This document shows positions 29,028-38,602 of a stretch of DNA of 64,000 bases, in pieces. Made by a program: the position numbers and the translations under genes. Each line of letters starts with the position of its first letter. Position 1 is the first letter of the stretch. Under the pieces are notes generated by a model. That model was given only the letters and a program-made list of their open reading frames with translations, searched no databases and was not told the origin of the DNA. The DNA comes from an uncultured Poribacteria bacterium (GTDB lineage: Bacteria; Poribacteria; WGA-4E; WGA-3G), in NCBI GenBank assembly GCA_951828515.1, contig OX639992.1, positions 5,000,217 to 5,064,216 of the forward strand. The letters are read 5' to 3'.

Positions 29028-29846
29028 ATGAAACCAGCAGATTATGCGTTTTTTAGAGAAAATGGCTACGTCTCACTCGGTAAGATTCTGAGCGATACCG
29101 AGGTTGAGCATTTTGTTCATAGTTTCGATCGGGACCGCACTGAAGTTGAAGATCACTGGTATCGTATCGGACATTACCAAACCGTGAATTGCGATGCACT
29201 TCTGACTTCACCTGAATTCGACAATGTGGTTCGGCATCCGATCGTCATGGATTGCCTACACACACTGATGGGCAATCCTCCTTGCTTTTCAGAAATCTGC
29301 ATCCGACACATGGCACCGTATGATGGTGAACTGAATCGCGGCTGGCATCGAGATGGTCCCAGGCACTGGCTTGAACACCCGTTGCGTATTGGGTTCATAC
29401 AGTTGATGCTGTACCTGACCGATGTTGATGAAACGACACACTGTTTCTCATTATCACCGGAATCAGTGGAAGCGGAGATTCTCGAAACAGACGAACAGTT
29501 GGCGCGTGGCGGAATTGTTAATTTGTACGGACCCGCTGGGACAGCCATACTCTTCAATATCGGTGTTTTACACACCGCTACGACCCGTCCGACTCAGGAA
29601 GAACGCAAGACGGTACAAGTCTATTACGGGCACCCGAACCGTCGGTACTTGAGCGAGGATTCGATTATACCTGTCGAACTTTGGCGAGACCATTCAGATC
29701 CTGAGGCGCGTGCCTTTTATAGCGTCTTCAACAACAAGACGCGCGACTACCTTGAACACACGGATTCAACGGGTGAATTGCTGTTTGAGGACACTTTGGC
29801 ACTCCTTCGCGAACTGGATGTCAAGCACCGCAAGCGCCCGCAGTGA
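29028..29846 (+). CDS. Phytanoyl-CoA dioxygenase (PhyH) family protein, copy A
   Basis: 272 aa, an Fe(II)/2-oxoglutarate oxygenase fold. The iron triad is visible as HRD (His107, Asp109 in GWHRDGP) and a distal His in LHTATTRPTQEERKTVQ, with the Arg that binds 2-oxoglutarate nearby. The N-terminal FFRENGYVSLGKILSDTEVEHF is typical of the family. Such enzymes hydroxylate diverse small molecules, and the substrate is unknown. The start codon follows the repeat leader with no other ribosome site. Confidence 0.88.
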   Translation: MKPADYAFFRENGYVSLGKILSDTEVEHFVHSFDRDRTEVEDHWYRIGHYQTVNCDALLTSPEFDNVVRHPIVMDCLHTLMGNPPCFSEICIRHMAPYDGELNRGWHRDGPRHWLEHPLRIGFIQLMLYLTDVDETTHCFSLSPESVEAEILETDEQLARGGIVNLYGPAGTAILFNIGVLHTATTRPTQEERKTVQVYYGHPNRRYLSEDSIIPVELWRDHSDPEARAFYSVFNNKTRDYLEHTDSTGELLFEDTLALLRELDVKHRKRPQ

Positions 29847-33421: not shown

Positions 33422-33479
33422 GTCAATAAAAAAATCAAACTGATTTTTGATTGACTTGTGTGTCCAAAACTGGTATCCT
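33422..33479 (+). promoter_or_regulatory. Promoter with palindromic operator before the alpha/beta hydrolase gene
   Basis: The inverted repeat GTCAATAAAAAAATCA-AAC-TGATTTTTGATTGAC (33422-33455) overlaps the -35 box TTGACT (33451-33456). A 17-bp spacer and TATCCT (33474-33479) follow. It is nearly the reverse complement of the palindrome at 21030-21060, with identical placement relative to the promoter. Confidence 0.75.
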
Positions 33480-35010: not shown

Positions 35011-35883
35011 ATGCTAATTCGCGGTGAGGACAGTGCGATTAATCTGCCTTCTACACTGACAGAAGAGGAAAAGTGGCACTACGATCTGTTTGGTTACCTG
35101 ATACTTCGGCAGGTGGTATCGCCAGCTGAGGTTGAACGGATGCTTGAGATAGCGAATAGGTGGTTTGCAGATCCCGAAACCGTACCTGAACTGGTGAATG
35201 TCACTCAAGACGAATATAGTGGTGTCCTGAACAACGTTCAGTACGGCGATCGGATTTTTGAACGGCTATCGCTTAATGAGGAGGTCCTACGGGTTGTGAT
35301 GGGCTTGATGTGGAATCGTCCACGGCTTTTTAATTGCGCGCTCGTCTTACAGAAGCAACGTCCTATTCCTGAAGGTGAAAAGGAGAGGCTTCATCGCGAT
35401 ACCAGCGGTTTTGAATTCCCCGACGGATTCCATAATCCACATAACGACTACCAAGCTGGGAACGGACAAATCTACAGCAACTTCGTCAACACCGCCATAA
35501 CGCTTGTCGATGTGCCGAAGGACAACGGTTTCATGTGTATCCCCGGCACGCATAAATCGAGAATCAAGTTTCCTGCGACGCTTGACATCGACAATGAGTG
35601 GGCACCCGCAATCACCTTTGAGTTAAAGGCAGGGGATTGTCTCGTCTTCTCGCCGCGCCTGATGCACGGCGCGAAATTCTGGAAAGCCGATTACCCACGC
35701 CGAGTCGTCTTCAATCGGTATCAATTCAGTTTCTATTTCAATGAAAACTATAACCTACCGATAGAAGCGCATCGACACTGTATCTCTAACGACGAATATG
35801 AATTGGAATCGATCCAGCGAAACGAAAAGGGGTTTGTCAAACGGATCCTCAAAAAACTGGAGACCGGAGAGGAACTATGCTGA
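35011..35883 (+). CDS. Phytanoyl-CoA dioxygenase (PhyH) family protein, copy C
   Basis: 290 aa with AGGAGA upstream. The iron triad is intact: His128 and Asp130 in RLHRDTSGF, distal His in LMHGAKFW, and Arg in YPRRVVFNRYQ. The N-terminal motif EEKWHYDLFGYLILRQVVS is shared with the next gene, which overlaps it by seven bases. The two are clear paralogs (ITLVDVPKDNGFMCIPGTHKS against VSLVDVPPGNGFACIPGSHKS) and may form a functional pair. Confidence 0.88.
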   Translation: MLIRGEDSAINLPSTLTEEEKWHYDLFGYLILRQVVSPAEVERMLEIANRWFADPETVPELVNVTQDEYSGVLNNVQYGDRIFERLSLNEEVLRVVMGLMWNRPRLFNCALVLQKQRPIPEGEKERLHRDTSGFEFPDGFHNPHNDYQAGNGQIYSNFVNTAITLVDVPKDNGFMCIPGTHKSRIKFPATLDIDNEWAPAITFELKAGDCLVFSPRLMHGAKFWKADYPRRVVFNRYQFSFYFNENYNLPIEAHRHCISNDEYELESIQRNEKGFVKRILKKLETGEELC

Positions 35884-36695
35884 CACAGGAAGAAAAATGG
35901 CACCTCGATCTGCTCGGCTATTTTGTAGTGCGCAACGCCGTGCCGAAGTCTGACATCGAACTGATGAAGGCACAGATGTTCGAGTGGTACGAATGGGATG
36001 CGGGCGATTTCAAGTTCCCGATGCGGATCAATGCCCCAGAGGGAAAGCCGTGGTGGGTCTACAACATGCATTACGGGCACGAAGCGTTCCAACGGCTCAT
36101 CTTGAACCCAGAAATCCTGCGTGTAGCAACTGCCCTGACTTGGAATCATCCACGCGTTTTTGATGTCGTAGCGAATATCTGTTACCCCAACGCTGACGGC
36201 TTGGAATTGCACGGTGGGCATAAAGGGTGGTTCCGAAGTCCACACCACCAATACCAAGTCGCTAACGATGAGATCTTCGCGAGTTTCTTCAACCTCTCCG
36301 TTTCGCTCGTGGATGTGCCACCCGGCAATGGATTCGCCTGTATTCCCGGAAGCCACAAATCCAGCTTCCAATATCCAGAACACATCACGATGGACGATCC
36401 ACCACCGACAGTTCACAGTGTCCCAGTGAACGCTGGCGATTTCATCGTATTTCTGCCGAATACGCGACACGCTGGACGACGCTGGAGCCATGAAGATTAC
36501 CCGCGTATAACAGTATTCTTGCGCTGGGTCTATGCGAAACAATTTCATCACGCCGACTCGTCTTGGTGGCTTCCGTTTGATGCACATAAGGACGAAATTC
36601 CAGAGGCACTGCATGAACTTGAAAGCCGAGATCACGGCCAGCGAGAGGCGTTGAATGAACTCATAAATCCGTTTAAAGTCGATATTCCGGAATGA
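35877..36695 (+). CDS. PhyH-family protein, copy D, with HxG in place of HxD
   Basis: 272 aa, ATG overlapping the end of copy C. The position of the iron-binding HxD reads LHGG (His112, Gly114), and the distal His198 is kept in TRHAGRRW, as is YPRITVFLRW. Loss of the aspartate carboxylate is what separates SyrB2/WelO5-type halogenases from hydroxylases in this superfamily, so a halogenase or a non-catalytic partner of copy C are both possible. The N-terminus and fold otherwise match copy C. Confidence 0.85.
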   Translation: MLTQEEKWHLDLLGYFVVRNAVPKSDIELMKAQMFEWYEWDAGDFKFPMRINAPEGKPWWVYNMHYGHEAFQRLILNPEILRVATALTWNHPRVFDVVANICYPNADGLELHGGHKGWFRSPHHQYQVANDEIFASFFNLSVSLVDVPPGNGFACIPGSHKSSFQYPEHITMDDPPPTVHSVPVNAGDFIVFLPNTRHAGRRWSHEDYPRITVFLRWVYAKQFHHADSSWWLPFDAHKDEIPEALHELESRDHGQREALNELINPFKVDIPE

Positions 36696-36822: not shown

Positions 36823-38454
36823 ATGGCAGCCCCGACAAATCGAGAAGTGATTGCCCACTGGTGCGATGAACCTGCTCCATTGCTTGCATTGTTACACGCC
36901 TTCCATGACCGAGATGGGTTTATATCGGAGGCAGTTCTTCGCGACATCACAGTCGGACTTCGGATCCCGCTCGCGGAACTCTTCGGTACGCTAACGTTCT
37001 ACCACCATTTTTCCCGTGAAACTCCAGGACAGGACGCACCGCGCGTCTGTACCGGACCCGTGTGTCGGTTACAAGGTGGCTTGGAAATCCTTGAGGCACT
37101 CAAAGACCAAGGTGCGACCCCGATGCCGTGTGCTGGAAGGTGCGACGATTGTGTGCCGGTGCTGAAAGGGCATCAGGTGCTCGTCGGAAAACAGGTAGAT
37201 ACGCTTTCTGTGCAACCCACGCCTTTACCCCCACCACATCCGGGCGATGGCGAAGAATGCCTCTTCGCCGAAATTCGAGAACCCGAACGCAATACGCTTG
37301 CAGGCTACCAACGTGCCGGCGGCTATGAAGCACTAACCCGTGCGTTGACAACACTCACACAAACAGATGTGATTGAAATGCTTAAAGAGAGCCAACTTGC
37401 GGGTAGAGGCGGTGCAGGATTCCCAACAGGCATGAAATGGGAATCGGTCTTGAATGCACCAGGCGAGCCGAAAACGATCGTCTGTAACGCCGATGAAGGC
37501 GAACCGGGGTGTTTCAAGGATCGGGTCATTCTCGACTATGCGCCACACGCCGTAATTGAAGGGATGACGCTCGCCGCTTACGCGACAGGTGCGACGCGCG
37601 GCTTTATCTATCTGCGATATGAGTACCCAGAAACCCTAAAAATACTTGAACGTGCACTCGCGGAAGCAGAGGCAGCAGGACTGCTTGGTGATACCATCCT
37701 CGGTGAAGATTTCAACTTCAACATCTACATTCGACGGGGCGCGGGTGCTTATGTCTGTGGGGAAGAGGGATCGCTATTGAATAGTCTGGAAGGGAAACAT
37801 CCGTTCCCGAGGAATCGCCCGCCCTATCCTGTAACACACGGATTTGAGAACTTGCCCACCGTTGTAAATAACGTGGAAACACTCGCCGCCGCTGTCCAGA
37901 TTTTACGACACGGTGCCGTGTGGTACAAAAACCTCAGTTGTGACGAAAACTTAGCAGGCACAAAGATTATTAGCCTTTCCGGCGACATCCAGAGACCGGG
38001 TAACTACGAGGTGCCTTTCGGACTTCCGTTAAAGAAGTTTCTCTACGAATGGGCAGGTGGCGCGCCAGAGGGACGCGAAATTCAAGCGATTACGACAGCG
38101 GGGTTATCTGGTGGGTTTATCGCTGGTGCCAACTTTGATATTACTATCGATGAACCGAGTTTCCAAAAGGTAGGGGCGATGCTTGGGGCAGCAGGAATAA
38201 TGGTGTTTGATGACACGCGAGATATGCTTGATGTCGCACGCAACGCAATGGAATTTTTTGCCGAAGAATCTTGCGGAAAATGTTTCCCTTGTCGTATCGG
38301 CACACATCGACTGACAGAACTTTTGGCTGAGCCTTTGCACCCAAATTCGGAGGCACTTATTTCAGAAATTGGAGCCGTTATGAGGGCAACGAGCGCATGT
38401 GGACTCGGCACTGCCGCACCAAACATTACGGATAGCCTGATGAGGTATTTCTAA
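36823..38454 (+). CDS. fdhB: NAD-linked formate dehydrogenase beta subunit (NuoE-NuoF fusion)
   Basis: 543 aa. The N-terminal thioredoxin-like [2Fe-2S] domain (residues 1-130) has four Cys in CTGPVC and CAGRCDDC, like NuoE. The NuoF part has the NADH site GRGGAGFPTGMKW (near 195), the FMN-binding CNADEGEPGCFKDR and YVCGEEGSLLNSLEGKHPFPR, and a C-terminal [4Fe-4S] cluster (ESCGKCFPCRIG plus TSACG). It passes electrons from FdhA to NAD+. FdhA lies 29 kb upstream, so the complex is encoded at two loci. A related use in a hydrogenase cannot be excluded. Confidence 0.9.
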   Translation: MAAPTNREVIAHWCDEPAPLLALLHAFHDRDGFISEAVLRDITVGLRIPLAELFGTLTFYHHFSRETPGQDAPRVCTGPVCRLQGGLEILEALKDQGATPMPCAGRCDDCVPVLKGHQVLVGKQVDTLSVQPTPLPPPHPGDGEECLFAEIREPERNTLAGYQRAGGYEALTRALTTLTQTDVIEMLKESQLAGRGGAGFPTGMKWESVLNAPGEPKTIVCNADEGEPGCFKDRVILDYAPHAVIEGMTLAAYATGATRGFIYLRYEYPETLKILERALAEAEAAGLLGDTILGEDFNFNIYIRRGAGAYVCGEEGSLLNSLEGKHPFPRNRPPYPVTHGFENLPTVVNNVETLAAAVQILRHGAVWYKNLSCDENLAGTKIISLSGDIQRPGNYEVPFGLPLKKFLYEWAGGAPEGREIQAITTAGLSGGFIAGANFDITIDEPSFQKVGAMLGAAGIMVFDDTRDMLDVARNAMEFFAEESCGKCFPCRIGTHRLTELLAEPLHPNSEALISEIGAVMRATSACGLGTAAPNITDSLMRYF

Positions 38455-38459
38455 TATGG

Positions 38460-38602
38460 TTATCGGTCGTCGGTTGCTGGTCGCTGGAGGAAGGGTTGTC
38501 GGTTATCAGAGGAATAGTTATCGATTATTAGTTAAAGAGGGATCTGATTTAACCAAACCCCTCTTAACCGACGACCGACAACTGATAACTGACAACTATT
38601 AA
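38460..38602. repeat. MITE-like inverted repeat between fdhB and the MFS gene
   Basis: Begins CGGTCGTCGGTTGCTGG...TTGTCGGTTATCAG, passes through GTTAAAGAGGG and CCCTCTTAAC, and ends CGACCGACAACTGATAACTG. The two halves can fold on each other. Same family as 14687-14821 and 60072-60189. Confidence 0.65.

Follow-up and report, generated by a model that had tools for sequence, protein, structure and literature searches.

The closest described system to the locus analysed here is HygX, an oxygenase of hygromycin B biosynthesis whose structure was solved with Ni/2-oxoglutarate (2OG) and with Fe (PDB 4xc9, 4xca, 4xcb, 4zpi). In HygX, LHGG replaces the HxD motif of the iron site while the distal His is kept, and a Glu stands four residues before this His (the -4 position; NEALMH). 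The metal coordination of HygX was reportedly found to be unusual in the 2015 paper on the enzyme. Another example is AspH, the human aspartate/asparagine beta-hydroxylase, whose iron binding and hydroxylase activity are established and whose HXG...H site supports hydroxylation without a carboxylate, even single-His variants being active (PMC10947486). A different arrangement is that of TlxI-TlxJ (7vbq), a fungal heterodimeric Fe/2OG oxygenase in which two paralogues work together; TlxI and TlxC have been reviewed as auxiliary, dysfunctional 2OG-oxygenase subunits (PMC12141560, PMC11880133). Additionally, 2'-O-methylnucleosides are demethylated by other members of the PhyH family, including a poribacterial one (PMC12709175), so that quite different substrates are possible. 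Within the Poribacteria, a phylum of marine sponge symbionts, the expansion of this same family was described as extreme and its functions as mostly unexplained (Kamke et al., 2014; PMC3909097), and the portion of that account drawn on here mentions neither Asp-less iron sites nor the gene pair described below.

The genome under study, a Candidatus Poribacteria represented by a single contig of 5.85 Mb, holds approximately 141 matches to PF05721 in a Pfam profile search. Two of these lie side by side in the window, i.e., the whole stretch of 64,000 nucleotides that was analysed (contig positions 5,000,217-5,064,216). Gene C (35011..35883, + strand) encodes a PhyH-family Fe(II)/2OG oxygenase of 290 aa, and gene D (35877..36695, + strand) a PhyH-family protein of 272 aa; both are intact, co-directional open reading frames that pass the Pfam gathering cut-off of 22 (72.9 bits for C, 33.4 bits for D), and they share seven bases, ATGCTGA, in which the stop of C overlaps the start of D (35877..35883, +). 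Antisense to D runs an open frame of 295 aa (35748-36635, -), also aligned at approximately 65% in other genomes, which is most likely a shadow of the coding sequence of D.

C carries the canonical HRD...H site, with H128-R129-D130 (codons 35392..35400, +) in the same MAFFT columns as H112-G113-G114 of D (36210..36218, +), so that G114 occupies the position of the Asp, D130. The distal His (H219 in C, 35665..35667, +; H198 in D, 36468..36470, +) and the 2OG Arg (R230 in C; R210 in D, 36504..36506, +) are likewise matched by column. The 2-His-1-Asp triad is therefore present in C and absent from D, just as the earlier note had read from this DNA. This holds in every orthologue, with LHGG in 36/36 distinct orthologues of D and HRD in 37/37 of C, and neither D nor its relatives vary at H112, H198 or R210; the general loss of other cofactor residues, which the earlier note had listed as a refutation, was thus looked for and not found. 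Moreover, D is under strong purifying selection, its median dN/dS against same-genus orthologues being 0.040 (0.043 for C; dS >1 for both), and a motif fixed in all orthologues at a dN/dS of approximately 0.04 is neither a chance event nor a sequencing slip. D also has a Pro, P194 (36456..36458, +), at the -4 position in all of its orthologues, as C does at its own -4 position, and no D-specific invariant Asp or Glu was found in the motif regions; at the level of sequence, there is thus no sign of the nearby acid that the earlier note had named as a refutation. By its sequence, D is a protein without either acid, i.e., without the Asp of HxD and without an acid at -4. Three basic residues that lie near the site in the sequence are invariant and specific to the D lineage: H115 (36219..36221, +), H124 and R197, which adjoins the distal His (36465..36467, +). 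Additionally, D has Gln125 where nearly all close relatives have Asp (D125Q). The changes D125Q, H115 and R197 would suit a site for an anion, or a role without catalysis, as well as they suit a two-His oxygenase.

The loss of the HxD Asp is common in these genomes. Approximately 25 PhyH proteins of the source genome have HxG, HxA or HxS instead, and in an alignment of 158 sequences, drawn mostly from the source genome, with close relatives and HygX added, 46 were Asp-less (HxG, HxA, HxS, HxH or similar). In this alignment a Glu at -4 ('TEALTH') was found in 40 of the 46 Asp-less proteins vs 4 of the 112 with HxD. A second set, composed of other poribacterial families plus one Cupriavidus and one Streptomyces plasmid, gave 59 Glu and 6 Asp at -4 among 68 Asp-less sequences and a single Glu among 37 with HxD. 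When the two sets are pooled and Glu or Asp is counted, the -4 acid is present in 105/113 Asp-less proteins vs 9/149 with HxD. Four positions never vary in a set of 18 diverse Asp-less paralogues whose mean column identity is 35%, namely the first His, the -4 Glu, the distal His and the Arg for 2OG. At the former Asp position, Gly, Ala, Ser, His and Gln are found, as are the bulky Trp, Tyr, Leu and Ile. Collectively, this evidence suggests that the iron carboxylate was probably relocated to the -4 position in Asp-less PhyH proteins. The link between Asp and -4 acid is mainly a conservation argument from one large branch, because the Asp state changed only about five times on the tree, which leaves an independent-pairs sign test without power.

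This large Asp-less branch with its near-invariant -4 Glu or Asp extends over the source genome and genomes G036, G040, G044, G054 and G057. Nested in it are two rare proteins that combine the HxD Asp with the -4 Glu (L049 and L330), possibly intermediates or cases of Asp regain. Three others (L203, L337 and L343) retain the -4 Glu but read RxD in the alignment; an Arg seems to replace their first iron His, and the alignment may be off at this point. Elsewhere, a single frame of 581 codons (G000:C1:871983-873470) holds two tandem PhyH domains, and at least one further frame is of similar length.

Against this background, HxG alone is no mark of a halogenase, because it is common in poribacterial PhyH proteins and also occurs in HygX, nearly always with an acid at -4. 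By its sequence, the rare feature of D is not HxG itself but the missing -4 acid as well: of the two features that define a HygX-like site (HxG, HxA or HxS, and Glu or Asp at -4), D has HGG and lacks the acid. When the motif columns were left out, the tree placed D beside C and the other HRD group (86/87) inside the branch of HGG and HAA proteins that carry the -4 Glu. HygX was absent from that tree, in which C and D are nested among poribacterial Asp-less proteins. These relationships would fit a history that begins in a HygX-like branch whose iron carboxylate had already moved from HxD to the -4 Glu; the C/D branch would then have lost this Glu, C may have regained the Asp, and D would have done neither. 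The regain of Asp in C is only moderately supported, because the AU test does not reject a tree that joins D to the HGG paralogues and not to C (p 0.145).

C and D also behave as a pair. Their orthologues occur in an identical set of 35/83 poribacterial genomes. Among 60 loci, some of which are one genome counted twice, 58 show the 7-base overlap and the other two a 40-base gap. The pair is retained in a second family, in which D shares 75-77% identity and no other gene of the window adjoins it except for weak LamG-type matches. There its neighbourhood includes genes for GH32, enolase-like, SDR and xylose-isomerase-like proteins, which give a weak hint of carbohydrate metabolism. Within the genus, the flanking genes are syntenic and hence uninformative on function. 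Four same-genus genomes lack the pair: G033, G002, G025 (one flank readable) and G004. At otherwise collinear loci, the gene at 36823 lies directly next to the PhyH gene at 29028 in G033 and next to the hydrolase at 33447 in G002, C and D both being missing in each case; such joint loss of adjacent genes is weaker evidence of pairing than retention across families. Taken together, the pairing of C and D is strongly supported, and the paired function that the earlier note had derived from the overlap is supported by the shared genomes, the second family and the joint absences. A contig titled Gammaproteobacteria NP59 bears a C-D pair (L114) very close to a poribacterial one (L113) and looks mis-binned. 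Downstream of the gene at 36823, positions 38494-38600 of the window are an interspersed repeat, with matches at many scattered sites in G004, G025 and further genomes.

The structural comparisons also lead to HygX. The AlphaFold2 model of D reached a pLDDT of 88.6 and a pTM of 0.89, with the loop at residues 116-120 below a pLDDT of 50. The sequence of D alone had no match in the PDB by phmmer and a profile was needed; by profile, HygX was the top PDB match of D (E 2e-15). HygX was also first for the model of D by Foldseek, and again by VIA-align in its Ni/2OG-bound form (Z 22.2, rmsd 3.0, 218 aligned), with FtmOx1 less than one Z unit behind; the model of C gave the same Z, 21.1, with HygX as with human PhyH. 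The likeness has its limits, since HygX is 18-20% identical to D, has Glu where D has Pro and belongs to an antibiotic pathway. An NCBIfam search assigned D to no family, and no relative of D was found on plasmids at E 1e-3.

Our leading reading, a tentative one that falls slightly short of an even chance, is that C and D form a unit in which C is an ordinary oxygenase and D a catalytically competent two-His Fe(II)/2OG oxygenase. C would act as an ordinary 2-His-1-Asp enzyme, and D would hold Fe(II) by H112 and H198 only and 2OG by R210, the place of the carboxylate being filled by water or by a group from the substrate, as in human AspH. D could then hydroxylate or oxidatively rearrange the same small molecule as C or the next one, the substrate being possibly carbohydrate-like, and the two proteins may be in physical contact. 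Like D, AspH has an HXG...H site with two His; unlike D, it belongs to another 2OG oxygenase family and acts on protein substrates, the likeness being confined to the iron site. On this comparison, D seems more likely to be an oxygenase than a halogenase.

The main rival, possible but clearly less probable than the two-His oxygenase, takes D for a non-catalytic or regulatory subunit that would form a heterodimer with C and aid its stability or its substrate pocket, in the manner of TlxI-TlxJ or TlxC-TlxA. Such a role would agree with the obligate co-occurrence and overlap of the two genes, with the position of D near C in the tree and with the presence of TlxIJ (7vbq), similar in fold, among the structural matches of both models, and the reviewed auxiliary subunits offer precedents for it. 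D shares with TlxI a neighbouring obligate partner gene, TlxI-TlxJ being a heterodimer and C-D a pair known here from its genes. However, the 2OG Arg is lost in TlxI, and D keeps both this Arg and the two His without exception; its dN/dS is as low as that of C, and its closest Asp-less relatives are solitary, with no HxD partner next to them. The dead partner that the earlier note had offered as one outcome is likewise not favoured, because both His and the 2OG Arg are invariant. A third protein ligand overlooked at the level of sequence, e.g., H115 of the HGGH stretch or an acid that C contributes across a dimer interface, would make D an ordinary oxygenase instead. H115 is invariant and D-specific, and the poorly modelled loop at 116-120 may supply a ligand; nevertheless, we regard this as the least probable of the alternatives, the motif regions being devoid of a D-specific invariant Asp or Glu and HxH variants elsewhere in these genomes often retaining the -4 acid.

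The remaining alternative, which we consider unlikely, is the one that the earlier note had raised from HxG: D would be a new Fe/2OG halogenase that takes up chloride or bromide at the coordination site left free by the carboxylate and passes it on to a substrate which C has prepared. As stated, the argument from HxG was not supported, given the approximately 25 HxG, HxA or HxS paralogues of the source genome, HygX, and AspH, which is a hydroxylase despite its HxG (PMC10947486); moreover, false positives are a known problem of the HXA/G motif (PMC12871659). What survives of it is the lack of a -4 acid in D. SyrB2 also has its Asp replaced (HQA, against G114 in D) and a Ser at -4, so that the objection drawn from HygX misses D, in which P194 stands at that position. 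The invariant basic residues H115, H124 and R197 near the site could likewise suit a halide, and the closest genomes are named Poribacteria, whose members are symbionts of marine sponges (PMC3909097), which implies a halide-rich habitat. No positive sign of a halogenase was seen in return: D does not match the chlorinating-enzyme model TIGR01762 at E values up to 10, no poribacterial protein in the 83 genomes passes its cut-off (0/83), the structure nearest to D is HygX and not a halogenase, and none of the genes next to C and D was recognised as a biosynthetic partner. WelO5 and BesD were not among the structure matches listed, which is not evidence against a halogenase. A more elaborate form, improbable to a slightly greater degree, would have C oxygenate and the carboxylate-free site of D, with its basic residues, transfer chloride or bromide within a heteromeric enzyme, as a lineage apart from SyrB2, WelO5 and BesD that evolved from the branch in which the carboxylate had moved. 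Overall, the halogenase reading is neither supported nor excluded for this PhyH protein, which by nature seems to lack an iron carboxylate and has an obligate partner.

These observations suggest a simple rule for the family, i.e., that a PhyH protein with HxG or HxA and a Glu or Asp at -4 is probably an oxygenase of the HygX type rather than a halogenase. Such a rule would strip many false positives out of halogenase mining and, applied to the source genome, would leave D and its orthologues among very few candidates for a halide assay. If the reading as a halogenase were true, D would represent a halogenase lineage from uncultivated sponge symbionts. If D is active, it would be a naturally occurring Fe/2OG enzyme of the PhyH fold with two His at its iron; because an ordinary relative is always inherited with it, a single pair would then allow a test of what the iron carboxylate does.
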